Source: Anaerolineales bacterium (GTDB lineage: Bacteria > Chloroflexota > Anaerolineae > Anaerolineales > Villigracilaceae). Taken from it: a DNA stretch of 64,000 nt. The number at the start of each line of letters is the position of its first letter. The first letter of the stretch is position 1. Position numbers and translations under genes: made by a program. Shown here one piece after another: positions 11,917 through 48,661 of this stretch. The stretch lies in assembly GCA_020851785.1 (NCBI GenBank), contig JADZCC010000037.1:1-64000 (forward strand), given 5' to 3'. The notes below the pieces were generated by a model that was not told the origin of the DNA, searched no databases, and saw only the letters and a program-made list of their open reading frames with translations.

Positions 11917-11948
11917 AAAAAAACCGCTGAATACACAGCGGTTTTTTT
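11917..11948. terminator. Bidirectional intrinsic terminator
   Basis: A 13-bp stem (seven A then CCGCTG, paired with CAGCGG then seven T) around a 6-nt loop, with the A and T runs serving as U-tracts on either strand. It separates convergent genes and touches the stop codon of the EamA gene. Confidence 0.9.
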
Positions 11949-12930
11949 ATTCATACGGGCCAAAGAGGTCTTTGGGCAGGTCGGGCGCGCGAATCCAGGA
12001 GAGCCAGCCGGTTTTGCGGCTTTGCGTGGGCGGCGGCGCCTGCTCATACATGACCAGCATGAGGCTTGCGCCAAGCCCCAGCGCTCCCAGCCATTGAAGG
12101 AAAGTCAGGTTTTCGCCGAGCAGGATTCCGCTGAAGACGATGGCGATTAATAACTCTGCCAGCCCCAATAATGCGGTTTGCATCCCGCCAATTTTTTTAA
12201 CGCCCAAAAATAGCGCAATCCGCGAGAAGATGGTTACCGAAGTTAGCCCGATGATCGGCCAAATGGAAGCGTGTTGCGAAAGGGGCGGCCAACTTCGGTC
12301 AAATAGCAAATAAGCGGGAACGACCACCAAACTCATGGCCAGCAAGGTATACACGGTAACTGTGGGCGCAGGAACCTCATATAGCACCCTTTGGTTGATC
12401 GGCAGGTGCATCGCGTATAAAACCGAAGCGATTAACATGAAGAGTACGCCAACGGGATCTATCGTCTGCCCGGAAGAATTGGTCAATAGAATTGTGGCCA
12501 GTACAGCCAACCCGATTCTAAAGAAGGTTAATTTGCTGGGGGCCTGATGATCCAAAATCAGCCAGACTGCCACGAAGAACGGATAAAGCGAATACAGTAA
12601 TTGACCGAGGCTGGCGTCCAGCCTCGAAAGCGCCATATAGTAAAACAGCGAACCCAGCCCGTTGATGGCTCCGGCAAAGAAACATCCAATCAATCCAACT
12701 GGGAAAATATACAAATATTGTCGAAAGAAAATGGCGATGACCAAAAGCAAAATGAGGGCGGCCAACCCCGTCCGCAGGGCTACAACGGTAAATGGGGAAA
12801 ACCCGTAGTTAATGGCCAACTTTCCGAATACTGGCGCGAAGCCGAGAAAAAATGCGGAACTGAATGCGGCAAAAATACCTGCAGTTTGTTTTTTTTGCAA
12901 AGACGCCAGCCTTATGTGAAGCATGCCCAA
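11947..12930 (-). CDS. EamA/DMT superfamily transporter
   Basis: A 327-residue integral membrane protein with ten predicted helices in two EamA repeats (about 17-155 and 165-300). The drug/metabolite transporter superfamily includes RhtA, an exporter of threonine and homoserine; the gene directly upstream encodes a threonine synthase, which makes an amino-acid export role plausible but unproven. It is the last gene of the long minus-strand run, 10 nt after the threonine synthase gene. The ATG at 12930 or the one two codons later could be used. Confidence 0.85.
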   Translation of the reverse strand: MGMLHIRLASLQKKQTAGIFAAFSSAFFLGFAPVFGKLAINYGFSPFTVVALRTGLAALILLLVIAIFFRQYLYIFPVGLIGCFFAGAINGLGSLFYYMALSRLDASLGQLLYSLYPFFVAVWLILDHQAPSKLTFFRIGLAVLATILLTNSSGQTIDPVGVLFMLIASVLYAMHLPINQRVLYEVPAPTVTVYTLLAMSLVVVPAYLLFDRSWPPLSQHASIWPIIGLTSVTIFSRIALFLGVKKIGGMQTALLGLAELLIAIVFSGILLGENLTFLQWLGALGLGASLMLVMYEQAPPPTQSRKTGWLSWIRAPDLPKDLFGPYE

Positions 12931-12940
12931 AGTTTGCGGT

Positions 12941-14593
12941 TTATTTAATCAGCGATCTCACTTCTTCAAGAAACTCGTCGTTCAGGAAATCGCCTTTTTG
13001 CAGGAGCGCCTGAATTTGCCCGCCCAGACGATTCTTTTCGTCTGGAGTCAGTTCTTTGGCGGTGGCTACGATCACGGGAATTGAGGCGGTTTCGCTCTTC
13101 GACCGGAGCGCTTCGAGGACTGAGAACCCGTCCAGTTCTGGCATCATCAAGTCGAGGATGATCAAATCCGGCAGTTCGCGCTGAATCATCTCCAGGCCTT
13201 CGCGTCCGTTGGTGGCTTCAATGATGGTGAAATTCCCCTGGGATTGTAAAATGCGGCGGATGAGGCGGCGCGCTTCGGTCGTGTCTTCTACAATCGCAAT
13301 TTTCGGGAAGCGCTCCGGCGCCACCTGGGTTAACGCTGAAAGCAAGCCCTCCTGCGGCGTCTCGTCTTTGGATGGGAATTTAACGTCATGCGACCAGTTA
13401 TCGCCCAGCACGAAAGATTCAGCGGGCAGGGTATGGCCCGTGCAATTGACCACGACCGTATCGGAGGGTTTAATTACGCCTGCGCGAATGAGTTTGAACA
13501 AACCGGCAAAGGCGGCCGCGGCGGCGGGCTCCGCTGAAATGCCTTCCATTTTGGCCAGCACGTGCATGGCGCGAAACGCGTCTTCGTCACTGACGCTTTC
13601 AAAGGCGCCGTGGGTTTCGTTGACTTTAGCCCGTAAAAATTCATACGCCCGGCCGGGGTCGCCGGTGGCCAGCGTTTCAATGCGCGTCTTTGGGGAAGTC
13701 ACCGGCTCCGCTTTTTCGAGTCCCTTTTTCCAGCTATCCACCATCGGGGCGCACCCTTCGGCTTGGATGGGCGCAAAAGCCGGAAGGTCGTTGATCCAGC
13801 CCATTTGTTTCATTTCTCGAAAGCCTTTGTAGACGCCAATCGGGCCCATCCCGCCGCTGACTGCTTGCACATACCAATCCGGGGTTTGCCACTTTGAGTT
13901 TTCTGTTGGGCCAAGCGCGGCCGTGAGTTGCTCCGCGATTTCAAAGGCAATGGTTTTCATCGCTTCAATCGAGGTGATGGTGCGCGCGCCCATATCCTGA
14001 TACAGGCCGCGCTGGCGCGCAAATTCCGAAGCGACTTGTTTGCATTGATCGTACGAGCCGGTGATCTTAATCACCTGACTCCCGTATAGGGCAATTTCGC
14101 GCATCTTCACGCCCGGCACCAGGCTGGTGACAAACGCCCAGAGTTTCATCCCCGCCCGCGAAGCGTAAGCGGAATAGGAGATAGCCACGTTTCCGGTGGA
14201 GGCGGCGACCATTTCTGTGATTCCCGCTTCCTTCAATGCGGCGATGGTGATGGAAGCCTGCCGGTCTTTGAACGATGAAGTCGGGCCCTGCCGTTCGTCC
14301 TTGATGAAAATGTTGGGGCAACCGAGCATCATCCCCAGGTTGGCGGCGCGCACTAAAGGCGAACCGCCCTCGCCCAACGAGAGGCTGACGTTTGGCTTGC
14401 GCACGGGCAAAAGTTCGCGGTAGCGCCACAGGTCAAAAGGGCGCGAAGTTAACTGCTCCCTGAGAGTCTGGCCAATTAATTCATAGTCGTATTCAGCTTC
14501 GCGCCATTGGCTTCCGCACTTTGGGCAGGTGGTAGAGGTGGGATAGTACGGCGTGTTATGGCCGCAATCCAGACATTTGATGATGAAGGACAC
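12941..14593 (-). CDS. Threonine synthase with C-terminal receiver domain
   Basis: A 550-residue fusion. Residues 1-415 are a PLP fold-type II threonine synthase (O-phosphohomoserine to threonine): zinc ribbon C7, C10, C23, C26; PLP lysine K109 in TSSFKDRQAS; ASTGNVAIS near 131. Residues about 430-550 are a receiver: acidic pair E436-D437, phosphoacceptor D481 in ILDLMMPELDG, T511 and K533. The join is in one frame with no sign of frameshift. The receiver ends in an LQKG element instead of the usual KP and closely resembles the second receiver of the hybrid kinase encoded next to it. Start is GTG with AGGAG upstream. Phosphorylation may tune enzyme activity or location; that is inference. Confidence 0.88.
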   Translation of the reverse strand: MSFIIKCLDCGHNTPYYPTSTTCPKCGSQWREAEYDYELIGQTLREQLTSRPFDLWRYRELLPVRKPNVSLSLGEGGSPLVRAANLGMMLGCPNIFIKDERQGPTSSFKDRQASITIAALKEAGITEMVAASTGNVAISYSAYASRAGMKLWAFVTSLVPGVKMREIALYGSQVIKITGSYDQCKQVASEFARQRGLYQDMGARTITSIEAMKTIAFEIAEQLTAALGPTENSKWQTPDWYVQAVSGGMGPIGVYKGFREMKQMGWINDLPAFAPIQAEGCAPMVDSWKKGLEKAEPVTSPKTRIETLATGDPGRAYEFLRAKVNETHGAFESVSDEDAFRAMHVLAKMEGISAEPAAAAAFAGLFKLIRAGVIKPSDTVVVNCTGHTLPAESFVLGDNWSHDVKFPSKDETPQEGLLSALTQVAPERFPKIAIVEDTTEARRLIRRILQSQGNFTIIEATNGREGLEMIQRELPDLIILDLMMPELDGFSVLEALRSKSETASIPVIVATAKELTPDEKNRLGGQIQALLQKGDFLNDEFLEEVRSLIK

Positions 14594-14612
14594 GTTAAAA
14601 GGCGCTCCTGCC

Positions 14613-17600
14613 TTATTTATTAACCCGATCTAATGCGCGTTGAATGGTCGTCAGCAATTCCTTCTCGTTGAACGAACCCTTGGAAAGCAGGCGCTGGCCC
14701 AGTTGATTGAGTTGATCCTTTTGTTCGGCGCTCAAATCCACGCCGCTGATGACGATTACCGGAATGTCGCGCAGGTTTACGCTGGCGCGCATGTTCTCCA
14801 GAATTTGAAAACCGTTTAAGTCTGGCATGAACAGATCCATAATCACGGCGTGCGGCGGACTGCCGGAGGAAATCATCGTCCAACCGGCGAGGCCGCCTTC
14901 CGCGAGCGTGGCCTTGTAGCGGCCGTCGTCGTTTAGAATCTTTGAAATGAGACGTAAATCGTTGGGGTCGTCGTCAATTACCAGCACGTCGCGGATTGAA
15001 CCGTCCGCGTTGAGGCGATCCAGCGAGTTGACGAGGTCGTCCTCTAAAATCGGTTTGACGAGATAATCTGAAGCGCCCAAACTGAAGCCTTTTTCAAGGT
15101 CTTCGATGATGCTACAAATGATCACCTGGGTGTTTCTGGTTTCAGAATCCGCTTTGATTTTGTCCAAAACCTGCCAGCCGTCTATGCCGGGCATCATAAT
15201 GTCCAGCGTCACGGCAAAAGGTTTCAGCTGTTTGATTCTTTCCACCGCCTGATTTGGATCGGTGAGGGGAATGACCTGATAGCCTTGCGGCTGGAGATAG
15301 CGCTCGTACAAGCCAATCACTTGCGGGTCGTCGTCAATGGAGAGGATGATGCGATTTCCGGCGGAGGTGGAAGCATTGGCCTCGTTTTGTTTTTTGTAGA
15401 GCGGCAGAGTGAAGGAGAAAGTGGAGCCGCGTCCGAGCTCGCTGTCCACCCAAATCCGTCCGCCGTGCATGTTGACCAGGTTTTGGCAGATGGATAAGCC
15501 CAGCCCGGTCCCGCCGGTTTTACGGGTTGGCGAATCGTCCACTTGCGAAAAGGCCTGGAAGAGTTTCGCCTGATCTTCCTTGGAAATGCCCGTTCCAGAA
15601 TCCGTGACGTTGACTTGAACTTCCATGCGTCCGTTGGGGCCGGGGCGCAGGCCAACGTTGACGGTAATGTCGCCTTCGTCGGTGAATTTCGCGGCGTTGG
15701 AAAGCAGGTTGATCATCACCTGACGGATGCGGATTGCGTCGGCGCGGACGGTCGGCAGGTCTGGCTCGATAATCCGTTTAAGTTGAATGGGCTTGTCTTT
15801 GATCAAGCCGCTCATGGTGGAAATTACGCTGTTGGTGATGTCCGTCATGTTCACTTCGTCGAAGGCTAGTTCCATCTTGCCGGCTTCGATCTTGGCCAGG
15901 TCGAGGATGTCGTTGATCAGGGTCAGCAAGTGCTGGCCGGAATTGTAAATGGCGGATAAATCCTGCTGTTGCAATTCCGTCACCGGGCCGTCAATGCCTT
16001 TGAGGATCACGCGCGAAAAGCCAATGATTGAGTTGAGCGGCGTGCGTAGTTCATGGCTCATGTTGGCGAGGAACTGACTTTTGACGCGGTCAATTTCGCG
16101 CATTTCCTTGACCGCTTCCTGTGAAAGTTGGAAGGAACGGGCGTTGTCAATGGCGATGGCGATTTGGTCGGCGAGCGTTTGCAGGACGGAGATTTCATCT
16201 TCCGTAAAGGCGTTCACCTGTTTGGATTGAATGTCCAGCGCGCCGATGGTGCGGCTCCCGATTCGGAGGGGAATTGCGGCTTCTGAGCGCGTCTCGGGCA
16301 GGAGCGGGTTGAATTTGTAAATTGGATCGTGTTGCAGGTCGTTGGCCACTACCGGCTCTCCATCTGCGCAAACCCGGCCCACGATCGATTCGTTGTTGAT
16401 AATTACCGAATGGTTGTTTTGCTTCATTTCTTCGCCGGCCAACCCGGTGGCTTCTCGAAGCAGGGCGTTGAAGCGCGTCTCTTCGACGATGAAGATGGCG
16501 ACGTGATACATTTGGAAGCGTTCGCTAATTAAGCGGACGGTGCGCGTGAAGATGGAATTCAAGTCCAGCGTGGAAGTGACCAGTTTGCCGATTTCGGCGG
16601 AAACGGCGAGGTATTCGTTTCGGCGACGAATGGCTTCTTCCGCCTTTTTGCGTTCGGTAATATCGCGCGCCACCCAGAAGATGTTGTTTTCGTCGAGTTT
16701 GGTCAGATTGGCCAGAAACCAATGCGGCTCATCGCCAACCGGCAGTTCGTACTCAATTTGGGTGGGTTTGTCGGTTTCGATGGTTTCCCGAATTGCGGCC
16801 ACCGATAGGTCCGCCGTTTCTTTTTCCATGACGTCGTGCATATATTGGCCGAGCAGTTCGTCTGGTGGGCGAACTAAAAGGCTGGGGTTGGTTGGCGCAA
16901 TGCGCACGTACTTGCCGTTTTTGTCCATTACCAAAACCACGTCGTCCATGGAGGAGAAGAGGGCGCGTAAATCGGCTTCGGATTTTGAAAGCGCTTCCTG
17001 ATTTCTGGCGCGTTCCAAGGCGCTGGCCGCAATTTGGCCAAATAAACGAAGTGTGGCAGTTTCTTCGTCGCGCCAGTTTTTTGGCTTGCGAATTGAATCT
17101 AACCCAATGAAGCCAGCCGCTTCGTTGCGTAGGACGATGGGCACAGCCAGGACGGATTGAATCCCGGCTTGTTGGTATTCCGTTCGGTCTGCGCGGGCTT
17201 CTTCTGGAAGCCCGCCAACGGTTGGCGCAACAAATGCTTCCAGTTTGCTTAAAAAGCTAATGGTGTAAGGCAGGCTATTTTTTAAAACGCGGCGATTATC
17301 CTGAGCAGAGGGCGCAAGCGCGGCGTCGCGCCAGACGTGCGTTTTATCCATTGTCAGGCCATCGTTGTTGAACATGAATACGTAGGCCTGCTCGACGTTG
17401 ACGAATTGACAGATCTTCTTCAGACTTTGATTAATTTCATCGTGAACTTTTGCCGGATCATTAATATTAAGAAAGGAAGCGGCGATGTCGTTGATCAGGT
17501 TTTCGGCTTCGGCGCGCGCCCGCGTACTCTCCAGCGCCTCCTGCGTTTCTTGAAAGAGATGCGCGTTTTCCAGCGCCAACGCCAGTTGGTCGGTCACCTG

Positions 17601-18089
17601 CCGAACCAAAAGTTGTTCGTCTGGAGACCATTCGCGGTCAGCCAGCGTATCTTCCACGCGCAGGGTGGCCCAATCCTGCGTTCCGGCTTGAAAGCTGACC
17701 GAAAATGCAGAGGTGTTGCTTAGGCTGGCCTCCTGGACGACGGTGGCGGGTTCGGGCAATGGCCCGAGGGCGGAGGTGTAGCGCTTGGCCGCTGGTTTGT
17801 CCAGTTTGGTGGGCGGCGTGGTTTTTGGCGAAATGTCGCTCGGTTGCGCTGGCTTGGGAGCGGGGCTTGAAGGGACGACCGTTGGCGCGAAGGCAGGCGG
17901 AACAACTTGCGGCGTGGATTCTGCCTGACGGGCGGATTGATTCGGCTCGGGCGCGGCAGGCGGCGGCGTGATGGAACTCGCCTCTTTCTGGACTTTGGGC
18001 TTGCGCTTAACGCCCTTGTCCGTATCCTCCGGCTTGAGATTGTCAAAAAGATTGTTAAGCTGTTTGTCTAGCTTCTGTTTCTTTGGCAT
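14613..18089 (-). CDS. Hybrid histidine kinase (half-GAF, GAF, PAS, GAF, HisKA, HATPase, REC, REC)
   Basis: A 1158-residue soluble kinase. Residues 1-100: basic peptide KLDKQLNNLFDNL, then a Pro-rich linker. About 103-180: an incomplete GAF with YTSALGPLPEP and a C-terminal LALALENAHLFQ helix, like the second GAF of the receptors upstream. Then GAF (about 190-360), PAS (370-480), GAF (490-650), HisKA with H679 in NMSHELRTPLNSIIG, HATPase (790-895, [18 protein letters not shown]), REC1 (D963, KP motif) and REC2 (D1085, K1137 in LSKG). It is the only kinase in the operon and the likely partner for the twelve kinase-less receptors. It overlaps parA by 35 nt. Confidence 0.92.
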   Translation of the reverse strand: MPKKQKLDKQLNNLFDNLKPEDTDKGVKRKPKVQKEASSITPPPAAPEPNQSARQAESTPQVVPPAFAPTVVPSSPAPKPAQPSDISPKTTPPTKLDKPAAKRYTSALGPLPEPATVVQEASLSNTSAFSVSFQAGTQDWATLRVEDTLADREWSPDEQLLVRQVTDQLALALENAHLFQETQEALESTRARAEAENLINDIAASFLNINDPAKVHDEINQSLKKICQFVNVEQAYVFMFNNDGLTMDKTHVWRDAALAPSAQDNRRVLKNSLPYTISFLSKLEAFVAPTVGGLPEEARADRTEYQQAGIQSVLAVPIVLRNEAAGFIGLDSIRKPKNWRDEETATLRLFGQIAASALERARNQEALSKSEADLRALFSSMDDVVLVMDKNGKYVRIAPTNPSLLVRPPDELLGQYMHDVMEKETADLSVAAIRETIETDKPTQIEYELPVGDEPHWFLANLTKLDENNIFWVARDITERKKAEEAIRRRNEYLAVSAEIGKLVTSTLDLNSIFTRTVRLISERFQMYHVAIFIVEETRFNALLREATGLAGEEMKQNNHSVIINNESIVGRVCADGEPVVANDLQHDPIYKFNPLLPETRSEAAIPLRIGSRTIGALDIQSKQVNAFTEDEISVLQTLADQIAIAIDNARSFQLSQEAVKEMREIDRVKSQFLANMSHELRTPLNSIIGFSRVILKGIDGPVTELQQQDLSAIYNSGQHLLTLINDILDLAKIEAGKMELAFDEVNMTDITNSVISTMSGLIKDKPIQLKRIIEPDLPTVRADAIRIRQVMINLLSNAAKFTDEGDITVNVGLRPGPNGRMEVQVNVTDSGTGISKEDQAKLFQAFSQVDDSPTRKTGGTGLGLSICQNLVNMHGGRIWVDSELGRGSTFSFTLPLYKKQNEANASTSAGNRIILSIDDDPQVIGLYERYLQPQGYQVIPLTDPNQAVERIKQLKPFAVTLDIMMPGIDGWQVLDKIKADSETRNTQVIICSIIEDLEKGFSLGASDYLVKPILEDDLVNSLDRLNADGSIRDVLVIDDDPNDLRLISKILNDDGRYKATLAEGGLAGWTMISSGSPPHAVIMDLFMPDLNGFQILENMRASVNLRDIPVIVISGVDLSAEQKDQLNQLGQRLLSKGSFNEKELLTTIQRALDRVNK

Positions 18090-18843
18090 ATTCCATCAAC
18101 TCCTGGGCCAATACGCGGTATTGCGTGGAACCGCGCGCTCCAGATTTATACTTGGTAATCGGCATTCCGACAATTGGACTTTCTTTTAATTTGGTGTCCA
18201 CCTCGATGACCGTGTTGAGAACGCCTTCGCCAAAGGTCGAGCGGAGTTGATCGTGGATGTTGCGATGTGTGCGATTGCGGCGATCCAACATGGTGACGAG
18301 AATGCGATAAGAAAGATCGGGGTTATTTTCTTCGCGAATTTTGCGAATGAGATTCATCATGTTGCGTAGGGCGTAGGCTGAAAAATATTCCGGTTGAGTG
18401 GGGATGAGCAATAAGGTGGAGGCGCTTAATGCGTTGCGGGTAATGGCTCCCAATGCCGGGGGGCAATCCAGCAGGATGTAATCGTAGGGCAGGGGCGCGG
18501 AATTGGCGATGGCGCTTTTGAGGATGGCGGTGTAATTGGTGCGAACCGGTAAAAATTGCTCGGCGCTTTCAATGCGCGAATTGGAGGGAATCAAATCCAG
18601 ATTTTCCACGTCTGTTTTGCGGCGGGCGGAAAGCAGGGAAACGCCTTCGAGGATGACGTTGGCGGAGGTGATTTCCGCTTCGCCGGGTTCCAGCCCCAGC
18701 GCCAGGGTTAAATTGGCTTGCGCGTCCAGATCAATTAATAAAACTTTTTTGCTCATTTCGGCCAGCGCCGCTCCCAGCGAGAGCGTGGAGGTGGTTTTGG
18801 CGACGCCGCCTTTTTCGTTGGAGATGGAGATGATGGTGGTCAT
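18055..18843 (-). CDS. ParA/Soj family ATPase
   Basis: A 262-residue ParA-type ATPase with deviant Walker A KGGVAKTT at 11-18 (signature lysines K11 and K16), DLDAQANLT near 39-47 and Walker B LLDCPPALG. ParA proteins form nucleoid-bound dimers that segregate DNA or space out protein cargo such as chemoreceptor arrays and carboxysomes. No parB gene or parS-like site is seen here; instead the overlapping downstream gene encodes a hybrid kinase with a ParB-like N-terminal peptide. That points to cargo positioning rather than chromosome segregation, as an inference. It follows the last receptor gene by 17 nt. Confidence 0.88.
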   Translation of the reverse strand: MTTIISISNEKGGVAKTTSTLSLGAALAEMSKKVLLIDLDAQANLTLALGLEPGEAEITSANVILEGVSLLSARRKTDVENLDLIPSNSRIESAEQFLPVRTNYTAILKSAIANSAPLPYDYILLDCPPALGAITRNALSASTLLLIPTQPEYFSAYALRNMMNLIRKIREENNPDLSYRILVTMLDRRNRTHRNIHDQLRSTFGEGVLNTVIEVDTKLKESPIVGMPITKYKSGARGSTQYRVLAQELMEYAKETEARQTA

Positions 18844-18860
18844 GGTTTGCCTCGCTTCTG

Positions 18861-38758: not shown

Positions 38759-40590
38759 TCGTCAGACTCCTTTTCCGCGCCGTTCTCCGGACCTTTGGCT
38801 GGCCCATGTCCATTGGGCTGTTCCGCCATCTGAAAGGAGACCCGGGCGTTGCCAAAAGTTTGGCCAAGTTCCTGCACGGTCTCACGGAGGATCGTATCAA
38901 TGTGCGAGACCGAACTGAGGCGGGCGGAGATGTCTGAAACCAAACTTTCGCGCGCGGCGCGTTGTTGCGATTCTTGATAGAGGCGGGCGCTTTCGAGCGC
39001 GCCGCTTAATTGATCTGAAAGCGTCAGCGCCAGATTGGCTTCTTCCTGCGACCACGAGTCCGAAATATCGGACTTGCGTAACCGGATTCCGCCAATGGTC
39101 TGGCCTCTGACTTTGATCGGCACGGTCAGGGTTAACCCATCGGTGGAGATGATGGATTGGCCTGTTTCAAAAACCCTGGCCAGGCTGGGCTCCAGCGTGT
39201 TGGCGTTGGTTTGCGTTGCGCCAGGTAAGGTGGCCAGGTAGCCAACGCGCGGCTGGTTGTGAAGGACTTTGCGCCAGGCGTTACGGCTGATCTCGCCGTA
39301 CACTTCGCGGGAGGTTTGAAGCGCGCGTTCGGTTTCCGCAAACAGGTTGGCGTTTTGAATGGCGATGGCGATCTGGTCGGCCAAAATTTGCAAGGTGGCG
39401 ATGTCTGATTGCGTGAAGGCGTTCGACTCGACGCTTTGCACGTCCAACGCGCCGAGGACTTGTCCGCTGGCCACGAGGGGTAGCGCCATCTCAGAGCGGG
39501 TGTTGGGGAGGTCGGGATTGTCAAAGAAAACCGCGTCCTGCCCAACGTCGAGGGCGATGCGCGCGAGGATGTTTTGAGTCGCGTAGCCGACAATGCTCTT
39601 TTCATCCACCTTAAGTTTGTGATTTCTTTCCAACATGTCCTTGCCGCCTGCGCTGTTGGCGGCGCGTAAGACTGCATATTCTTTTCTTTCATCCAGCAGG
39701 AAGATGCCCACATGATAAAAACCGAATCTGGCGCTGATCAGGTTGGCGGTTTGCTGGAGTAGCTCGGCTAAATTGCGAACCGAAGTAGCCGCTTTGCCAA
39801 CGTCTGCGGCGGCTCGCAGTTGGGTGGCGCGCGTTTCGAGTTCGTGCGTTCGTTCAATGACGCTTTGTTCGAGTTCGGTCAGCATCGTTTGGATGGAACT
39901 GGAGAGTTGGTTAAGGCTTTGGGCGACGGCCCGATGTTCGCCTCTGAAAGTTGAGAGGTTTAGACTTTCGCTAAAATTTTTCTGGCCCAGGCGATTCGCA
40001 AATTCCGCAAGGCGATAAGCCGGAGTAAGTTGGATGAACATCAGGACGCCGCTAATGACAGCGATGACCAACAGGCTGAACAACAGACGCTGGAGGAGTT
40101 GCTTGGTTAAGTTGTTGATGGGACTTTGCGTTTTATCGAGGCGAATGGCTACGACCGCAACCGGATCAATAATTGTTTTACGGTAGGAAGCGAAGAGCGT
40201 GTCGCTCTTTTCGTCAAAGAATTCGGCGCTTTCCCGGGTCAGCAGAAAACTGGTCAGGCTGAAGCCGAGGTCGCTGTTGGAGTAGGAACCTTTTTTGATG
40301 TTGTCCGAATGGGCGACGTATTTTCCGGTGAGATCTAAAAGGAAGAAGGTGGTATTGGGCGTAATATCTGCCACTGAATCGGTGACGCTTTGCGCTTCTT
40401 TGGCGGAGGCGGCTTCCAATCGAATGGAATAAGCCCGCGCCTGAGTGGCGAGGATGCGTAGTTGATCGTCTGCAAAGGCTTCCCGGACGGGGCCTTGCAT
40501 GTAGGAATAGACGACGGCCAGCGGAATAAGCGCAAGCAGGGCCAGCCAAAAGACAAACCGCCACGTGAGGGTGGTTCCCAGTCGGCTCAC
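38755..40590 (-). CDS. Receptor J: short Cache-like sensor with GAF domains, no output domain
   Basis: A 611-residue protein with two membrane helices (12-32 and 168-188) around a small extracellular domain of about 135 residues (TTFFLLDLTGKYVAHSDN suggests a single Cache fold). A HAMP-like region follows (about 190-243), then GAF1 (about 265-425, FGFYHVGIFLLDE, RIALDVGQDAVFFDNPDLP), Trp linker (RNAWRKVLHNQPRVGYLATL), an incomplete GAF (LTVPIKVRGQTIGGIRL) and the shared tail (RLSSVSHIDTILRETVQELG). The ORF overlaps receptor I by 4 nt. Confidence 0.82.
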   Translation of the reverse strand: MSRLGTTLTWRFVFWLALLALIPLAVVYSYMQGPVREAFADDQLRILATQARAYSIRLEAASAKEAQSVTDSVADITPNTTFFLLDLTGKYVAHSDNIKKGSYSNSDLGFSLTSFLLTRESAEFFDEKSDTLFASYRKTIIDPVAVVAIRLDKTQSPINNLTKQLLQRLLFSLLVIAVISGVLMFIQLTPAYRLAEFANRLGQKNFSESLNLSTFRGEHRAVAQSLNQLSSSIQTMLTELEQSVIERTHELETRATQLRAAADVGKAATSVRNLAELLQQTANLISARFGFYHVGIFLLDERKEYAVLRAANSAGGKDMLERNHKLKVDEKSIVGYATQNILARIALDVGQDAVFFDNPDLPNTRSEMALPLVASGQVLGALDVQSVESNAFTQSDIATLQILADQIAIAIQNANLFAETERALQTSREVYGEISRNAWRKVLHNQPRVGYLATLPGATQTNANTLEPSLARVFETGQSIISTDGLTLTVPIKVRGQTIGGIRLRKSDISDSWSQEEANLALTLSDQLSGALESARLYQESQQRAARESLVSDISARLSSVSHIDTILRETVQELGQTFGNARVSFQMAEQPNGHGPAKGPENGAEKESDE

Positions 40591-40627
40591 AGGATGCCTC
40601 GCTTGCAGGATCGCTCAAATAAATCGG

Positions 40628-42322
40628 TCATTTTAACCTTAACGCGCTGGTATGTTTACGCGGCGCTTTGGGTTCGGCTTGCGGCAGTCCAACGCTGATT
40701 TCGGCTTCTTTTAAATCGAACACCCTTCTTAGCTCAGTGGTTGCGGTGCGAATGACCGCCTCCACGTCCAGCGTTTCGCGCACGCGGGATGAAATGTTGG
40801 CGATGAGTTGATCGCGCTGGGCGTTGCGTTGCGCTTCTTCCACCAAACGACTGTTTTCCAGCGCCAGTGAAATTTGTTCCGCAATTTTTTCCACCATGCC
40901 GCGCTCTTTTTCCGACCAGGCGGTGGAGTAGCCTTTTCGGCGGAGATGAATGTTACCGATTTTTTGGCTTTGCAGGAGGAGCGGAATTTGCAGGACGCCG
41001 ATGGGCGATTCTTCTTTTTTGACTTGCCCAAAAATTGGACGAACTCCGGCTGGCGTATATTGGTAGGCGGGGGCGCGGCGGCTGGTGGCTTTCGTCCAGG
41101 CTTGGTGCGTTTGTTCGGAATTGTAGAAGCGCAGTTGTTCGATGAGCGCCTGGGTTTCGCCAATCAGGCGCACATTGTCAATTGAGATGGCGACCAGATC
41201 GGCGACGGTTTCAAAGATTTCAATATCCTCTTCTTCAACCGTTTCCAGTTTGTTGGAGTGTAAATCCAATATGCCAACGAGATCGCCGCGCACAATCAGG
41301 GGGATGGCGATTCTGGTGCGGGTGGACGGGAAATTCGGATCGCTGATAAAGCGGGCTTTATCAAGGTCTGAAAAGGCGTAAGGCTTGTTGTGTTCGATCA
41401 CCAGGTCAATTGGGTTGCGAATCCCAACGCCCACGCGATGCCCGGCGCCGATTAGCTCCATGCCAATTTCAGAGGAAGAGGCTTGCAGGGTGGCCGTCTG
41501 TTTTTGAGCGTTTAGCAAATAAATGCCAACGTGGTAATAGTTAAACTCTTCCGTAATTGCGTCCACTGAAGCGCGCAGGAGGTCTGGCACGTTTTTGATT
41601 TCCACCAATGCGCGAGCGATCTTTGTGGAAGATTGGAGTTGAACCGAGCGGTTTCTGAGCGCGCTGGTGCGCTCGCGGATGATTTCTTCCAGACGCGTTC
41701 TTTCTTCAGTCAGAGATTGGTATGCGCTTTGCGCTCGTTGCGTAACCTTTGTGAATTCCTGTTTGAGCGCGTTCATGGCCAGCGTTACCACCAAGCCGCA
41801 GACGGCGAAGTCTGCAATAAAAATGGCCCAGCGCGTCAGGTCAATTGCAGGGACGCCTGGATCGAGGGGCTTGAAAATGTTCAGCATGTATAAAGCGGCG
41901 ATGACGATCAAGGTGACGAAGCTGAAGGTCAACGCGTAAATCGTCGCTTTGTGATCCAGTAAAAGCGCGCTAAGCGTTACGTAGCACAACAAGAAGATTG
42001 TGGCGTCTCCCCAGGCGCCCAGCAGGAGGATTTCGTTTGCTCCAGCGATAAAGGTGACTGAAAGCAAGGTGATGGCGCGGACGTTGTACGAGGCGCGTAA
42101 GAAGGTTACGCCAAACAGACCGAGCAATAAAAAGAGAAAGAGGATGCGACTACTGACTGGCACAACCCGGAAAACGATGAAAAATAAACCGAGGCCCAGA
42201 AGACAGGCGATGCGTAGAACTGGCAAAATGAAACGACCGCGCCAGGCGTTGTAGTTGTAGCTTTCGGAACTTGATTCAGGCGGATAATCGCCACGCTCTA
42301 GAATGAGGTTGAGTTTATTCAT
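40628..42322 (-). CDS. Receptor K: polytopic membrane GAF protein without output domain
   Basis: A 564-residue protein with about six membrane helices (30-205), a coiled coil, GAF1 (FNYYHVGIYLLN) and an incomplete GAF with the shared tail (RVRETLDVEAVIRTATTELR). In GAF1 the DVGADAVFF element is replaced by FSDLDKARFISDPNFPS, so its pocket probably differs from the others. Trp linker: HQAWTKATSRRAPAYQYTP. Its ATG overlaps the receptor L stop by 8 nt. Confidence 0.8.
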   Translation of the reverse strand: MNKLNLILERGDYPPESSSESYNYNAWRGRFILPVLRIACLLGLGLFFIVFRVVPVSSRILFLFLLLGLFGVTFLRASYNVRAITLLSVTFIAGANEILLLGAWGDATIFLLCYVTLSALLLDHKATIYALTFSFVTLIVIAALYMLNIFKPLDPGVPAIDLTRWAIFIADFAVCGLVVTLAMNALKQEFTKVTQRAQSAYQSLTEERTRLEEIIRERTSALRNRSVQLQSSTKIARALVEIKNVPDLLRASVDAITEEFNYYHVGIYLLNAQKQTATLQASSSEIGMELIGAGHRVGVGIRNPIDLVIEHNKPYAFSDLDKARFISDPNFPSTRTRIAIPLIVRGDLVGILDLHSNKLETVEEEDIEIFETVADLVAISIDNVRLIGETQALIEQLRFYNSEQTHQAWTKATSRRAPAYQYTPAGVRPIFGQVKKEESPIGVLQIPLLLQSQKIGNIHLRRKGYSTAWSEKERGMVEKIAEQISLALENSRLVEEAQRNAQRDQLIANISSRVRETLDVEAVIRTATTELRRVFDLKEAEISVGLPQAEPKAPRKHTSALRLK

Positions 42323-43907
42323 TGGCGACGCTCGTGGTCACTTCAATATCCACTTCGGCGGCTTCCAGCACGCGTCCCAACTCACGGACGGCGGTTTGCA
42401 GGATGCTCTCGGTGTTGTTTGACGCCCAAATTTTGGCGATGATCTCGTTCGTGATTCTTTCCTGCGAGGCAATGATCTGACTTTCTTCCACCAGGCGGGC
42501 ATTCTCCAAAGCTAGAGCGGCTTGCGCGGCGATGGATTCGATCAGACTGCGCTGTTCGGGCGTCCACTCTTCGGCGGTGGACATGGAGATTTGACCGATG
42601 ATTTGGTCGCGCAGGGAAAGCGGCACTAGAACTTCCTTCTCGGAAGTTTCTTCATCATCTCCAATTTCGTATTCGAGCGGTTTTTCTTCGATGAGATTCG
42701 TCCAGGAGGATTGGAGATATTGCCTTTGTGCGGACCTGAGTTCAAACAGACTTTGTTGCGATTCGCGGAAGAGGCGGGAGTTTTCCAACGCGATGGCGAC
42801 CTGATTGGCCATGTTCTGGTAGGTGTCCAAATCGTCCGGCGTGTAGGCGGATTCTTTGGTGGAATGCAGTTCCAGCGCGCCGAAGAGCTTGTCGCCGACG
42901 ATCAGCGGCGCGGCCAATTGAGAGCGCGTGTAGGGGAGGAGGGGATTGCTAATGAAACCAGAATCAGCCCCGGTGTTAAGCGCGAGGCGCGTTTGTCTGG
43001 AGCGGATGGCCACAGCGACGAGGGTTTCTCCTTTAAGGTCAATGCGCTGTTTGTTTTCTTTCAAGACTTTCCCGGCGTCGCCGGTAGCCTCGCGCAATTC
43101 CGCCCACTGACCGGAAGGGTCAATCAGGTACAAGGCGGTGTAGTAGCTTTCCATTTCGTCGCCGATCATAAAGGTGGCGCGTGAAACCAGTTCGTCCGGG
43201 TTGAGGATGGAAGAAACGGTTTGCGCGATGTCGTTCACTTTTTTCAATTGGCGCGTGCGGTTCTTAACGCGATTCTCAAGCGTATTTCTTTCCTTGCGTA
43301 AATCGCCAAGCGTGGATTCGACGCGGGCTTCGGTTTCGTGCGTTTCAGCTTCAAGTTTGCGAAAACAAATGACGATGACCGCCGCAAATAGGAGCACGGC
43401 TCCGGCGGCGCTGAGCCAGTCGGCGAGGGTGGCGTGCAAGGCAAATTGATTAATCGGCACGATCACGCCTGTAAGGGTCAAGACGCCAAAAACGAGGAAG
43501 GTGAGGAGATTGATGGCGGTGACGATGATTCCGGCGGTGGGCGAAAAAAGCATGGACGAAAAGATGATCGTGCCGAGAAAAAAGAAAAGCCCGTCGCCCA
43601 GGATGCCATGCGTGGCCAGCTCGCTTAACCCCAGCGCGTAAATCATCGTAACAAAGCCAGACATCTTCACCCAGTAAGGGAAATTGATAAAGGTGATGAC
43701 GCAGATCACGATGTAAGCCGCGACGAAAACGATTGAAATGAAAAGCGCTTTCGCGCCGATCACCGCCGGGATGAGCGCGAACAACCCGAAGACGAGCGTG
43801 CCAATTAATAATGGATTGACTAAATGTTCGCGCCAGTTTTTATACAATGTCCGCGAGAGTTCTTCCACTTCTTCGGTGGGCGGCTGGCTGGAAGGGATTT
43901 GTTCCAT
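42315..43907 (-). CDS. Receptor L: polytopic membrane GAF protein without output domain
   Basis: I start at the ATG at 43907 (MEQIPSSQPPTEEV), one base after the TAA of receptor M with GAAGG upstream; a longer in-frame start would overlap receptor M by 41 nt and adds only basic residues. The 530-residue product has about six membrane helices (30-190), coiled coil, the most divergent GAF1 of the set (MESYYTALYLIDPSGQWAEL, RLALNTGADSGFISNPLLP), a Trp linker (QSSWTNLIEEKPLEYEIGDD), an incomplete GAF (VLVPLSLRDQIIGQISM) and the shared tail (KIWASNNTESILQTAVRELG). Confidence 0.8.
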   Translation of the reverse strand: MEQIPSSQPPTEEVEELSRTLYKNWREHLVNPLLIGTLVFGLFALIPAVIGAKALFISIVFVAAYIVICVITFINFPYWVKMSGFVTMIYALGLSELATHGILGDGLFFFLGTIIFSSMLFSPTAGIIVTAINLLTFLVFGVLTLTGVIVPINQFALHATLADWLSAAGAVLLFAAVIVICFRKLEAETHETEARVESTLGDLRKERNTLENRVKNRTRQLKKVNDIAQTVSSILNPDELVSRATFMIGDEMESYYTALYLIDPSGQWAELREATGDAGKVLKENKQRIDLKGETLVAVAIRSRQTRLALNTGADSGFISNPLLPYTRSQLAAPLIVGDKLFGALELHSTKESAYTPDDLDTYQNMANQVAIALENSRLFRESQQSLFELRSAQRQYLQSSWTNLIEEKPLEYEIGDDEETSEKEVLVPLSLRDQIIGQISMSTAEEWTPEQRSLIESIAAQAALALENARLVEESQIIASQERITNEIIAKIWASNNTESILQTAVRELGRVLEAAEVDIEVTTSVANE

Positions 43908-43908
43908 A

Positions 43909-46900
43909 TTAGCGGCCTTCCTTCGGCTTGGTTCCGTTCTCCGGTTCAATCTTGATTTTGGTTTGCTTGGAGCCAGTGATGCGCGTCAGTTCGCTGGCGG
44001 TGGTGGTGAGGATGGACTGAATATCGGTGGAACGGCGAATTTTGCTGGTCACTTCATAGACGATGCGCTCACGCTCGATCTGCTGGCGGATTTGCTCTAA
44101 CAGGCGGGCATTGGCGATGATTGCGGCCAAACTTCCGCCAAGCGTTCCGAGCATTTCTTCGTCGTTTTCAGTGTAGGCGTTTACCTTTTCGCTTTCAACA
44201 TTTAACACGCCGAGCAGTTCGTTGCGATAAATCAGCGGGATGGCAAGTTCGGAGCGGGTGTTTGAACTGACTTCAATATAGCGCGAGTCCTCGGCCACGT
44301 CGCGCACGCGGAGCAACCTGCGATTGGCGGCAGACCAGCCGGTGACGCCTTCGCCAAATGGAACGGTGAATTTTGTAATATCTTCCGAGTAGCCTTTGGC
44401 GGCTTTGATTTCCAGATTCTTTTTCTCGCGGTCGGCCAGCAAAATCGTCACACGGTCGCCGCCTAAAGTGACCTGTAAGCCGGTTACGGCGCTTTCCAGC
44501 GCTTCTTCCAGCGTGGTTCCAGAAGCGGCTGTGGTGGTGATGTGATGAAGCAGGCGATGTTGCGAGAGGTGCTCCTGTGTCTCTGCGAATAATTCCGTAT
44601 TGACCACGGCAATGGCGATTTGATCCGCAAGGACTTGCAGGCTTTTCAAGCGATCTTCGGTGAAGGCGTAGGGCTTGACGCTTTGCACGTCCAGCACGCC
44701 CAGAATGCGCTCGCCGACTTTGAGCGGAAACGCCGCTTCGGCGCGGGTGTCTGGAAGCATAGGGTTGGCGTAGTAAGTTACGTCTTTGGAGGTGTCGTTC
44801 ACAACCAGGCGTTCGCCGCGTCCACTGACGAACCCAACAATGGATTTTGAACCGACGCCGATTTTATGTCCGGCGCGTTTGAGTTGCGCGCCGGCATCGC
44901 CGGTAGCTTCGCGAATTACGGCAAATTCATTGGAAGCGTCTTTGAGGAAAACTGCCGCGTGATAGAAGGCAAAGCGTTCATAAATCAGGTTAACCGCCTT
45001 GATCAACAATTCGTCCAGGTTGAGAGAGCCGCTGATATCGCGCGCAATCTCGGCGGCGGTTTCCAACTGTACGGCGCGGGTGTTGCTTTCTTCCAGCAGG
45101 CGGACGTTGTTGACCACCCCGGCCACCTGACTGGCCAAAGTGGTGAAGAAAATCAGGTTTTCGTTGGTGAAGGCATGTTCATGCTCCACGTCTTGAATTA
45201 GCAAGGCGCCGACTGGTTTGTTTTGAACCAGCATTGGAACGCCCATGAGCGATTTGGGCAGGCGGCCTTGCACTTTCGCGCCCAAGGCCGTGACTCTGGC
45301 TTCTGTATCTTCCAGCAACATGAGCGGCTGGCGCGTGCGAAGCAGGACGGAGGTGATTCCCTCGCCACGCGGGAAAGATTCAAACGAGAGCATTTCGCCG
45401 TTTTCGTAGCTAAACGGAACGCTGATGGTATCGTTTCTTTCGTCGTAGAGCGAAACCACGAAACTGAAATCGCCGACGATTTGTTTGATTTTTTCGTGCA
45501 GGATCGCAAAGAAATTGGAGAGGTCGGACGATGTGGAAATCGCCTCGCTGATTAAAGCCAGAGATTCCACTTCTTTGAGATGCTGTTCGGTTAGATTCTC
45601 GGCTTCCGCTTTTTCGAGACTGATGGAAATTAAATCCGCAAAGTTTTCGTAGGGTTGAATAAAAGCGTTGTTCGCTTTGATTTCGTCCGAGCCAATGATT
45701 AGCAAGGCGTGCAACGCTCCCGCTTTCCGAATGGCCAGCAGGGCCACGGTCGCCAGATTGAAGGGGTCAATAAAGGCTCGAATGGTTTCTGGAAGTTCGG
45801 CGAGGTGCGAAGTGACCTGCGTTCCATCCGTTAGGGCGGCTTGAATTTCATCCGGCGCAAGGTTGATGGAATTAGGGACTTTGAGTCGCGCCGATTCGCC
45901 AAGTTGATTTGAAGCGCCAATCAGTTGAATGGCAGTGGGCGTTAAGGCCAGCAGGATCGTAACGTATGGCGATTTTTCCAGCGTTTCTGCGCTGATTTTG
46001 AGGATTTCGTCCTCGGTGGCGGCTCTGGCAATTAAGCGGCTGGAGCGATACAGGCGCGAGAGTTCGTCAAAATTAACTTGCGTGGCTTCGCTTAAGCCGG
46101 TGTTTTGGATGGCAGTCGCCACCTGACTCGCCAGCGTTTTAAGCATGATGATCGTTTCGTCGGTAAAGGCATCCGCCTGAACGCTTTGAATGTCCAGCGC
46201 GCCCAATACGAGACTGCCAATTGAAATTGGCACAACGGCTTCTGAATTGGCTTCGGGAAATAATTCGCTTCTTAGGAATTCCTGAGCGCCCTGAGTTCTG
46301 GAGGCGACTCGCGTCTGGTTGTTTGCGCTCGTCCAGCCAATGATGGAGGCGGCGCCGACTTCAACCTGATACCCATGCTCTTTAAGCGACTCGGTAGCCG
46401 CGCCATATCCCGTTTTGAAAACTACGTTCTTCCCGTTCAAGTCAGCCAGATAAATGCTCGCCTGATAAAAGCCAAATTGCTTGACTAATAGCTCGACAAT
46501 TTGATTGAACACGTCGCCCAGTTTGGCGGAAGAGGTGATGTTTTGAGCCACCTCTGCGGCGGTGCGCATCTGCCGCGAACGCTCGTCGGCGGCATTTTCC
46601 AGCGAGCGGTGCGCGCGAGTTAGCTCGTCGGCCATGTGGTTGTACGAATTCGCCAGTAAACCAACTTCGTCCCGGCTTTGAACGGTGGCGCGGCTATCCC
46701 AGTTACCCTCTGCAAATTGTTTGGTGATGACCGCCAGATTGCGTAAAGGTTTGGTGATGCGATTGATGGCGAAGAAGACGATCAGACTTGTGGCTAGTAA
46801 AATGAGGACGACCAGCCAGGTGATGAATGAAGCGAGGCTGTTTAATCCGCCATAGACGGTATTTGCGTCCACGCTGATGGCGACCCCGGCGTGCAGGCTT

Positions 46901-47793
46901 GGGAACCACTGTAATTGCGTCAGCGTTTCTGTGCCATTTGCCAGGCTGACTTCGTAAGGCGCGGGCGTGACGCTACCCGATTGTTTTAGTTCGGCAAGCG
47001 CTGGAACTAAAATCTCCTGTTGCGATTTTGAGACGGCGTCCACGCGCTTAAAGTCGCTGGAAGCCGGGTCAATTGAAACAAACTCGCCAGCCGGTAGGAT
47101 GAAATAAGCGCTGGCGAGCGGCGACAAGGCATGGATCGGGCGCAAGACCTCTTCCATTTGCGACGCATCGGTGACGCCCACCAGGTAGCCGAGCGAAGAA
47201 CCGCGCGTAGTTTTGTATTCGAGGACGGTTAATAAGGAAAACTGATTTTCAAAGAGCGGCGCCAATGCGTAAGAGATGGTTGAGGGGTTTTCCGGCGAGA
47301 CGTTTTGCAGGAAGGACAAATCGGAGATTTTTTGCCCCTGCCATTCAGGCTGGCTGGCAATCTTTACGTTTCCATCCATGTCCATCAGGATGAATTGATC
47401 GAACTGGAGATTCTTTTGCGCGGCGTTTAACTCTTGGAATTGATTGGCGACGCTTTTGCGAATCTCTTTAAACTCGGAACTCAGCGGGTTGGCATGCAAC
47501 GCGAGTTCCATCAGAATCGCAAAGTCGTTGCTTTTGAAGAGGGTTTGCAGTCCCGCCTCTTTGAGTTTAATCTCTTGATCCACCGCGCCCAGTTGTGTCG
47601 TCAGCAGGCTTTGCGTTTGCTGGATGGCTTGTTCGCGAAGTAAATTGTGCGCGCGATAATAAGCCGCCCCGGCCATAATGGACAACGGGATGACGATAAA
47701 GATTAAGAGCGTCCTAACGAGAGTCCCTGCCAGACTGCCCTTAAATCTTTTTTGTGATGTCTCGAATGTGGGCGTCGCTTGATGATCGCTCAT
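43909..47793 (-). CDS. Receptor M: dCache-HAMP protein with five GAF domains, no output domain
   Basis: A 1294-residue protein, the largest receptor and the first after the two receivers. Membrane helix (28-46), dCache-like extracellular domain (about 50-320, FDQFILMDMDGNVKIAS), membrane helix (324-344), HAMP (345-400), then five GAF domains at roughly 415-570, 600-745, 765-910, 930-1075 and 1095-1245, and the shared C-terminal tail (KIRRSTDIQSILTTTASELT). The GAFs differ from one another more than GAF1s of the other receptors do; the fourth (FAFYHAAVFLKDA) is nearest the common type. Still no kinase domain. It could act as a hub that pairs with several partners. Confidence 0.82.
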   Translation of the reverse strand: MSDHQATPTFETSQKRFKGSLAGTLVRTLLIFIVIPLSIMAGAAYYRAHNLLREQAIQQTQSLLTTQLGAVDQEIKLKEAGLQTLFKSNDFAILMELALHANPLSSEFKEIRKSVANQFQELNAAQKNLQFDQFILMDMDGNVKIASQPEWQGQKISDLSFLQNVSPENPSTISYALAPLFENQFSLLTVLEYKTTRGSSLGYLVGVTDASQMEEVLRPIHALSPLASAYFILPAGEFVSIDPASSDFKRVDAVSKSQQEILVPALAELKQSGSVTPAPYEVSLANGTETLTQLQWFPSLHAGVAISVDANTVYGGLNSLASFITWLVVLILLATSLIVFFAINRITKPLRNLAVITKQFAEGNWDSRATVQSRDEVGLLANSYNHMADELTRAHRSLENAADERSRQMRTAAEVAQNITSSAKLGDVFNQIVELLVKQFGFYQASIYLADLNGKNVVFKTGYGAATESLKEHGYQVEVGAASIIGWTSANNQTRVASRTQGAQEFLRSELFPEANSEAVVPISIGSLVLGALDIQSVQADAFTDETIIMLKTLASQVATAIQNTGLSEATQVNFDELSRLYRSSRLIARAATEDEILKISAETLEKSPYVTILLALTPTAIQLIGASNQLGESARLKVPNSINLAPDEIQAALTDGTQVTSHLAELPETIRAFIDPFNLATVALLAIRKAGALHALLIIGSDEIKANNAFIQPYENFADLISISLEKAEAENLTEQHLKEVESLALISEAISTSSDLSNFFAILHEKIKQIVGDFSFVVSLYDERNDTISVPFSYENGEMLSFESFPRGEGITSVLLRTRQPLMLLEDTEARVTALGAKVQGRLPKSLMGVPMLVQNKPVGALLIQDVEHEHAFTNENLIFFTTLASQVAGVVNNVRLLEESNTRAVQLETAAEIARDISGSLNLDELLIKAVNLIYERFAFYHAAVFLKDASNEFAVIREATGDAGAQLKRAGHKIGVGSKSIVGFVSGRGERLVVNDTSKDVTYYANPMLPDTRAEAAFPLKVGERILGVLDVQSVKPYAFTEDRLKSLQVLADQIAIAVVNTELFAETQEHLSQHRLLHHITTTAASGTTLEEALESAVTGLQVTLGGDRVTILLADREKKNLEIKAAKGYSEDITKFTVPFGEGVTGWSAANRRLLRVRDVAEDSRYIEVSSNTRSELAIPLIYRNELLGVLNVESEKVNAYTENDEEMLGTLGGSLAAIIANARLLEQIRQQIERERIVYEVTSKIRRSTDIQSILTTTASELTRITGSKQTKIKIEPENGTKPKEGR

Positions 47794-47802
47794 GGCTACT
47801 CG

Positions 47803-48276
47803 CTAACTAAATTCCCAAACGGGTTCTCCATTGAGGATGCGGCGAATCTGCTCGGGGAAACGATCGGGGTCGAGCGGTTTGCCGAGGAAACCGTCGAAAC
47901 CGGAAGTGCGCGCCTTCGCCATTTGCTCCATGCTGGCCTCTGCCGTCACCGCCACAATCGGAATGGTCTTGAACCGCTCCGAGGCGCGAATCTTTTTCAG
48001 CGCGCCGTAGCCGTCTTCGTACGGGAGGCGAATGTCCATCAAAATTAAATCAAGCCGCGGGAGCGTGTCGGCATATTCAACCACTTCATAGCCTGAGGTC
48101 TTCCATTCGCAATGAATGCCTAGGTAGCCCAGCATTCGCGCAATTAATACAAAGTTGGAAACGTTGTCTTCCACCACTAAAACCGCCGCATCCTTGGGGA
48201 TGGTCAGCTTGCGAATGGGTTGGGTGTCAGAAACGGACGCCTGCTCAGGGTCCGGCGTGGGGGTTACTTCAGACAT
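47803..48276 (-). CDS. Stand-alone response regulator receiver
   Basis: A 157-residue protein with a short N-terminal extension and one receiver (about 28-150): acidic pair in LVVEDN, phosphoacceptor Asp in LILMDIRLPYEDG, Thr in VAVTAE, Lys in LGKPLD. There is no output domain, as in CheY or Spo0F. It lies between the other receiver and receptor M with an 8-nt overlap on one side and 9 nt on the other, so it is probably a phosphate acceptor or shuttle for the hybrid kinase encoded in the same operon. Confidence 0.9.
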   Translation of the reverse strand: MSEVTPTPDPEQASVSDTQPIRKLTIPKDAAVLVVEDNVSNFVLIARMLGYLGIHCEWKTSGYEVVEYADTLPRLDLILMDIRLPYEDGYGALKKIRASERFKTIPIVAVTAEASMEQMAKARTSGFDGFLGKPLDPDRFPEQIRRILNGEPVWEFS

Positions 48277-48661
48277 TTGAACTCCTTGTTAGAAACCGCT
48301 CAATTTGCTGGGCAAGAATATCTATGTCAATCGGTTTCTGGATGTATCCATCGCAACCGGCTTCCAGCGATTTCTCGCGGTCGCCGCGCATCACGTTGGC
48401 TGTTACGGCCACGATGGGACTTTTATTGAATTTTTGGATGCCCTTGATCTTGGCGGTTAATGTATAGCCGTCCATATCCGGCATGTTGATATCCATCAAA
48501 ATTAAATTGATCGTTTCGCTTTCCAGCTTGCTAATCGCCTGGTCGGCATTGATCGCCTCCACCATGGCATACCCCTCTGAATTCAAGACCCTGCGGATCA
48601 GGTTTCGGTTATCAGGGTTGTCTTCAACGTATAAAATCGTGCCCTTCGTATCTTGTAGCAT
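48269..48661 (-). CDS. Stand-alone response regulator receiver, first gene of the receptor operon
   Basis: I choose the ATG at 48661 (MLQDTKGTILYVEDNPDN) because GGAGG lies about 9 nt upstream; a longer in-frame start adds 19 residues that precede the receiver fold. The product is 130 residues, a single receiver: acidic pair in YVEDN, phosphoacceptor Asp in LILMDINMPDMDG, Thr in VAVTAN, Lys in IQKPID. No output domain. The C-terminus overlaps the next receiver gene by 8 nt. About 75 nt separate the start from the tRNA-Gly terminator and hold no convincing promoter. Confidence 0.9.
   Translation of the reverse strand: MLQDTKGTILYVEDNPDNRNLIRRVLNSEGYAMVEAINADQAISKLESETINLILMDINMPDMDGYTLTAKIKGIQKFNKSPIVAVTANVMRGDREKSLEAGCDGYIQKPIDIDILAQQIERFLTRSSNV

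Follow-up and report, generated by a model that had tools for sequence, protein, structure and literature searches.

How could a dozen membrane receptors transmit their signals when none of them carries an output domain? This question is raised by an apparent operon of nineteen genes in an Anaerolineales bacterium of the Chloroflexota (assembly GCA_020851785.1). It lies in a stretch of 64,000 nucleotides (nt), positions 1 to 64,000 of contig JADZCC010000037.1, hereafter called the window. Sensing by many receptors through one kinase is known chiefly from the family of methyl-accepting chemotaxis proteins (MCP), CheW and CheA. Here, it is proposed that twelve output-less receptors dock through a common module and jointly control one soluble hybrid kinase, which would feed receivers and an enzyme fused to a receiver, PALP-REC. 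We give this reading a probability of about 0.6. With it, we infer a physical array, receptor-kinase binding and phosphotransfer.

The nineteen open reading frames (ORFs) lie on the minus strand between positions 11947 and 48661, with intergenic gaps of at most 37 nt. A preliminary description made from the sequence alone had proposed this run of same-direction genes, and the ORF survey bears it out once later ATG starts are taken into account. Pfam matches and hydropathy agree with the gene content then listed, that is, two receivers, twelve GAF receptors, a binding lipoprotein, a ParA-type ATPase, a kinase, PALP-REC and a transporter.

All twelve receptors have transmembrane (TM) segments according to hydropathy and GAF domains according to Pfam. 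As had been claimed, they have no output domain, since none of the twelve gave a HisKA, HATPase_c, GGDEF, EAL or MCPsignal (PF00015) match in the Pfam scan. Their sensors are of several classes, assigned from Pfam and hydropathy. Multiple TM segments with dCache and HAMP are found in g05 (18861..21677) and g07 (23352..26141), where dCache is weak and below the Pfam cut-off, and in g10 (28866..31817) and g11 (31810..34749), where it is above. Sensors with 4-6 TM segments belong to g06 (21679..23349) and g09 (27153..28856), both with six, and to the multi-TM g13 (37046..38758), g15 (40628..42322) and g16 (42315..43907), the last two being of the MASE11 type. Finally, g12 (34752..37049), g14 (38755..40590) and g17 (43909..47793) have two TM segments and a large outer part, g17 also carrying HAMP and four GAF stretches. 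The C-terminal architecture is common to all twelve. A coiled coil is followed by a GAF domain, a linker, a small GAF-derived hairpin and a long helix, with a conserved tryptophan in the linker between GAF and hairpin in 11 of the 12. In every receptor, the long helix enters the first helix and strand of a GAF domain, and the protein then ends. This terminal element will be called the tail.

Within the genome, the eleven best matches to the tail (E 1e-46 or better) all lie inside the operon; the tail of g17 matches at 2e-22, close to the scores of two receptors in a smaller cluster on C4, described below. Among 196 receptors collected from relatives and the window, the median distance from tail to C-terminus is one residue, a descriptive value because the proteins were collected through a C-terminal tail. 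These 196 receptors are related paralogues and do not count as independent cases.

What could such a tail contact? The hybrid kinase (14613..18089, minus strand) has no TM segment according to hydropathy. Pfam and profiles give it a tail-like N-terminal module followed by GAF, PAS, GAF, HisKA, HATPase_c and two receivers. Its HisKA, HATPase_c and receiver domains exceed the Pfam cut-offs, as befits a hybrid phosphorelay protein. Going beyond the preliminary description, sequence comparison shows that the N-terminal module of the kinase is homologous to the tail of the receptors. When residues 1-260 of 22 genus kinases, all shorter than 1200 amino acids, are made into an unguided profile, it scores the tail above the receptor GAF domain in 183 of the 196 receptors. 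A guided profile of the N-terminus, built without six kinases with long frames (G009, G018, G021, G032, G035, G036), gives the same count, with medians of 46 bits for the tail and 17 bits for the GAF domain; against 21 non-hybrid kinases, it scores 22 bits. As controls, the profile of the last GAF domain of the kinase prefers the tail in 0/196 receptors and that of its second junction in 72/196. Comparison of profile with profile, kinase N-terminus against receptor tail, gives a probability of 98.8% (E 7.7e-17) over 107 columns.

AlphaFold2 models are in line with this view. Receptor g06 was modelled with a predicted local distance difference test score (pLDDT) of 82.5 and a predicted template modelling score (pTM) of 0.44, and residues 95-375 of the kinase with a pLDDT of 82.9 and a pTM of 0.67. 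Both models show a hairpin of two strands, a long helix and a short helix; the receptor stops there and the kinase continues into a full GAF sheet. When the two models were used in structure searches, the matches were GAF, phytochrome and sensor-kinase folds, with nothing new on the six-TM sensor. From the resemblance of tail and N-terminal module we infer a receptor-kinase contact. In the proposed mechanism, each sensor, whether by itself or together with a binding protein, would shift its own GAF domain and tail. The hairpin and long helix of the tail would pair with the copy in the kinase as a parallel helical bundle, thereby altering kinase activity. Phosphate would then pass from the receivers of the kinase to the two free receivers and to PALP-REC. 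The EamA transporter would export the product of PALP-REC or a related amino acid, and ParA, where present, would position or partition the assembly.

Proteins joining the two partners occur naturally. Six TM segments are present in the kinase from the cluster of the relative G039. Residues 188-562 of this kinase align with residues 398-757 (of 762) of a receptor of the same cluster (44%), and its residues 808-1210 align with the kinase of the window (55%). Judged from these alignments, a receptor half including the tail is fused ahead of the kinase. Receptor-like N-termini ahead of a kinase are also found in G070, in the C4 cluster of the genome studied here and in G167. The system probably arose by fission, in which membrane hybrid kinases beside PALP-REC would have shed and multiplied their sensor halves, the kinase becoming soluble.

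Two of these loci deserve a description of their own. The C4 cluster (G000:C4:38038-55076; L045, L046) is a second, smaller cluster that codes for a PALP-REC paralogue (48%), a membrane kinase and two receptors of dCache-HAMP-GAF type, together with an NMT1 binding protein, a double-receiver protein and another kinase. The locus G070:C528:10001-51727, from outside the class, is array-like and has about a dozen tail-bearing receptors, a membrane kinase, PALP-REC and EamA.

Is the arrangement of the operon conserved? The comparison set comprised 61 genomes, the one of the window and 60 relatives, 36 of them from the same genus; those relatives that carry a name are assemblies of Anaerolineales and Candidatus Villigracilaceae. 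The tail is detected at E 1e-10 in 60/61 genomes, a level at which generic GAF pairs are included. At a best E of 2e-49 or better, strong tails are present in the genome of the window and in 34 of its 36 relatives from the genus; the other two, G001 and G019, give no tail match even at 1e-19. PALP-REC orthologues follow the receptors, being present in 34/36 same-genus relatives and absent from the same two, with a split gene in G016. ParA is detected in 35 of the 37 genus genomes and was not found in G006 and G019. In 34 genus clusters, ParA adjoins a receptor or receptor fragment and stands between receptors and kinase, its 3′ neighbour being the hybrid kinase in 27 and a kinase piece, cut by a contig end or a split frame, in 7. 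Where contigs extend further, PALP-REC (29/29) and EamA (28/28) come next. In these counts, the position of ParA in G005 was added from a separate ParA search, because an overlapping ORF masked it in the table of gene orders, and split frames in G007, G014 and G016 were kept as found.

Three further genera of the family match this order (G122, G385, G435), and 13 clusters from other families contain the gene set with some changes. In these 13, the neighbour of ParA is a receptor scored by its tail in nine and a GAF protein below the tail threshold in four. ParA is followed by the hybrid kinase in seven, by a hybrid kinase beyond two receptors in one, by a cut multi-GAF frame in four and by a contig end in one; PALP-REC and EamA then follow in 8/8. 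Very long hybrid kinases or multi-GAF frames of about 2600-2900 amino acids, with long chains of GAF-like modules, were observed in other families at G049:C14:84271-92487, G041:C269:2527-11346, G042:C32:1-7907 and G043:C48:9115-16998, that of G042 being a multi-GAF frame at the kinase position, cut by the contig end. Beyond this set, PALP-REC is found at E 1e-120 in 41 of 400 genomes sampled from the phylum.

Order and content thus recur in relatives, in the genus as well as in further families of the same order, so that the operon arrangement is not a matter of chance; chance clustering of the genes was rejected on this ground. The preliminary description would have been undermined by receptors scattered away from kinase, ParA and receivers, all of which in fact adjoin the receptors. 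The logic of many receptors for one kinase, which it had put forward, is supported by the complete clusters (n=20). They contain 2-13 receptors, with exactly one hybrid kinase in all 16 where the kinase is visible.

Losses and rates of change bear on the same question. In G001 and L115, the usual flanking genes are all present (HflX, M28 peptidase, TrmFO / polyprenyl synthase, HAD hydrolase). Between them, the array and the three convergent genes described below are missing, and ParA alone is left (G001:C10:43575-44378; L115:10001-10771). This joint loss supports the idea that the array minus ParA is a unit. Measured against the window, median identity among genus members is highest in the operon for PALP-REC (86%), followed by the kinase core (82%), ParA (76%) and EamA (75%); it is 59% for the whole kinase and 29-56% for the receptors. 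Assigned orthologues differ more in the sensor than in the tail in 83 of 84 comparisons; identities were computed over the query length, so that short local matches depress the values of the sensor. Rapidly changing sensors around a slowly changing hub are in keeping with a design of many inputs and one output.

What the receptors perceive may be approached from the non-receptor proteins that accompany them. The operon itself contains a periplasmic binding lipoprotein of the NMT1/SsuA type (26179..27147, minus strand; Pfam NMT1_2, 66.7 bits) with a lipobox-like LLTAC motif. The Pfam scan covered 10 of the 16 non-receptor proteins found inside other clusters and identified seven binding proteins, which fall into PBP_like_2, Peripla_BP_6, NMT1 and Bmp, and three FIST proteins. 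The remaining six are a dCache-like fragment, a frame interrupted by N, a 10-TM protein, a 4-TM protein and two binding-protein-like proteins. The receptors are likely to read direct ligands as well as binding proteins. The FIST-domain proteins lie amid receptors at L053:17855-19096, L057:18780-19919 and L202:6900-8039.

The orphan ParA-type ATPase (18055..18843, minus strand; Pfam AAA_31, 163 bits) belongs to a gene run without ParB, and its gene is overlapped by that of the hybrid kinase over 35 nt. Its Walker residues are invariant in 15 orthologues. The ParB match of the genome sits by another ParA on C2, and a separate ParA-ParB pair is present elsewhere in 5/5 genomes checked. Since the ParA-ParB pair is located elsewhere, the operon ParA is not taken for the chromosomal partition protein. 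Coding within the gene cluster of the cargo and distinctness from the chromosomal ParAB were both found for this ATPase, with the solo copies of G001 and L115 standing apart. In the ParA scan of named genomes, where 80 of 574 relatives were kept and 25 of these annotated, those below about 45% identity occur mostly in ordinary ParA contexts. ParC/PpfA homologues coded beside chemotaxis genes are reported to position those arrays (PMC10241942). By analogy, the operon ParA would position the array.

At the 3′ end of the operon, PALP-REC (12941..14593, minus strand) combines a threonine-synthase-like enzyme with a C-terminal receiver, both from Pfam. The lysine expected to bind pyridoxal phosphate (PLP), K109 in the SFKDR motif, is invariant in 13/13 sequences, including the C4 paralogue, as are the four cysteines of the zinc ribbon and, in the receiver, the acidic, phospho-acceptor and lysine positions. 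The protein scores below the curated threonine-synthase cut-offs (TIGR00260, 159.1 versus 167.1; NF006050, 273.9 versus 303). Both PALP and receiver are present in all 120 relatives among the matches listed (120 of 7962). A housekeeping role as threonine synthase is unlikely, given a receiver-free relative on C23. The last gene codes for an EamA/DMT-type transporter (11947..12930, minus strand; Pfam, 92.1 bits). EamA-family transporters include amino-acid exporters such as RhtA. Taken together, these residues, scores and family relations suggest that the kinase gates an amino-acid-type enzyme, the product of which may be exported.

The first two genes code for the stand-alone receivers 1 (48269..48661; Pfam Response_reg, 98.5 bits) and 2 (47803..48276; 72.8 bits), both on the minus strand. 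The first starts at 48661, which is also the end point given in the preliminary description, with an ATG preceded by GGAGG. A promoter with the perfect sigma-70 consensus TTGACA-18-TATAAT is predicted at 48863..48892 on the minus strand, 202 nt upstream of this ATG, and is the sole 12/12 site among the sites listed for 11800-49200. With the window counted, 7 of 20 clusters, from more than one family, have such a 12/12 consensus ahead of their first receiver gene; in the remaining 13, the top promoter-like site there has 7-10 of the 12 positions. The two largest overlaps between genes, 110 and 41 nt long, are reduced to a few nt if the later ATG starts at 31817 (g10) and 43907 (g16) are used. 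A 15-bp palindromic intrinsic terminator is predicted at 11915..11950 on the minus strand, between the operon and convergent genes, and a stem of at least 11 bp follows EamA in 16 of 38 clusters checked.

According to the window annotation, these convergent plus-strand genes code for a GAF histidine kinase (7026..9620), a receiver-histidine kinase (9472..11181) and an OmpR-type response regulator (11178..11912). The claim that the hybrid kinase is the sole histidine kinase thus holds within the operon; just beyond it, two more kinases lie in 7026-11912. Among 28 genus clusters with EamA, the trio is full in 16, partial in 6 and beyond the contig in 3; in G005, G031 and G034 it is swapped for a lone longer receiver protein. 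This trio may be a transcriptional branch of the array system.

Several observations weigh against docking of the receptors and their joint control of a single kinase. GAF modules are homologous everywhere, so the match of tail and N-terminal module could reflect ancestry without contact. That module ranks with the more variable parts of the kinase (median identity 47% versus 82% for the core), and in other families the array kinase bears many GAF domains of its own. The array-like clusters of G041, G070 and G295 have no ParA match, and the persistence of ParA alone in G001 and L115 speaks against a ParA serving the array only. In the promoter and terminator scan, internal promoter-like and terminator-like sites occur at about shuffled rates, so that no internal transcription unit is claimed. 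Furthermore, the genome has 42 HisKA matches, three of them within the window, such that the receptors could pair with kinases elsewhere, and the junction profile of the adjacent convergent kinase likewise prefers the tail in 85/196 receptors. These last two points, with the frequent presence of the convergent genes beside the array, would suit a pool of duplicated, kinase-stripped sensors that act on several kinases or hetero-dimerise, the hybrid kinase being one partner. However, the cluster always contains one hybrid kinase, whose N-terminal module is much more tail-specific, and the natural fusions link receptors with the hybrid kinase. Moreover, G005, G031 and G034 keep their arrays though the convergent trio is missing as kinases. 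Such a pool is therefore considered unlikely.

Another reading starts from the other end of the operon. Its core would be the hybrid kinase, PALP-REC and the exporter, forming a metabolic control unit to which the receptors are mere inputs, with no array and no positioning by ParA. PALP-REC is indeed the best conserved protein of the operon, with invariant catalytic, zinc-ribbon and receiver residues; it stands beside a kinase in the C4 cluster and, in G167 and G248, beside a kinase without free receptors or ParA in the stretch read. However, such a unit leaves unexplained both the presence of ParA beside the kinase across families and the free receivers at the head of the cluster. We regard it as rather doubtful, although less so than the pool of sensors. 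It might also be imagined that tandem duplication built a cluster whose parts have separate jobs, ParA acting in chromosome biology, as its retention after loss of the array could suggest. The repeated gene order across families, the joint absence of receptors and PALP-REC and the distinct ParA-ParB pairs make this very improbable. Joint control of one kinase by docked receptors is thus preferred. A wider version of this reading would see in the operon a second, independently evolved chemosensory array, with kinase-less GAF receptors docked by a GAF-stub tail onto the corresponding stub of a single soluble hybrid kinase, partition by its own ParA, a metabolic enzyme (PALP-REC) as direct phospho-output and a dedicated exporter, such that sensing would immediately yield a secreted amino-acid-type signal; this version is held tentatively, the odds being somewhat against it.

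If joint control is correct, the same design arose more than once, here from two-component parts, and its intermediate steps are still visible as fused membrane kinases, clusters of 2-3 receptors and arrays of 10-13. The operon would be a candidate central sensory organ for uncultured Anaerolineales, many of which have no CheW-domain proteins, and it would offer a case of an enzyme, PALP-REC, as direct target of a kinase.

How does the proposed system compare with known ones? No such system is described in the literature searched, which is weak evidence of novelty as most subscription journals lay outside the search. Like threonine synthase, PALP-REC has a PALP fold, zinc-ribbon cysteines and the SFKDR lysine; unlike it, it is fused to a receiver and falls under both curated cut-offs. 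The operon uses the same sensor, GAF, HisKA and receiver parts as ordinary Chloroflexota membrane hybrid kinases, but its sensor half is separate and exists in twelve versions, and its kinase is soluble. In the GacS/RetS/LadS multikinase network, one hybrid kinase reportedly receives the signals of several membrane sensors (PMC5992135). The operon would resemble it in having many membrane sensors for one hybrid kinase, convergence being the proposed element here. Whereas the partners in that network are themselves kinases, the operon receptors are kinase-less (12/12), clustered and endowed with a common tail.

The comparison with chemotaxis arrays is the closest. The genome, 97% complete, has no CheW-domain (PF01584) and no MCPsignal match, which agrees with the earlier claim that MCP domain, CheA and CheW are lacking, and the Pfam scans of the nineteen operon genes showed neither CheR nor CheB. 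Among the 61 genomes, CheW matches occur in 14 and MCPsignal matches in 12, in some cases alongside the array (for instance G015 and G048); the array is thus not simply a replacement for chemotaxis. Like Che arrays, the system has separate kinase-less receptors, a single soluble kinase, free receivers and a ParA-family ATPase in the cluster. Unlike them, its receptors carry no MCP domain, its genome gives no match to the CheW domain, and its kinase is a HisKA hybrid with GAF and PAS domains, to which the receptors would be coupled through a tail derived from GAF.

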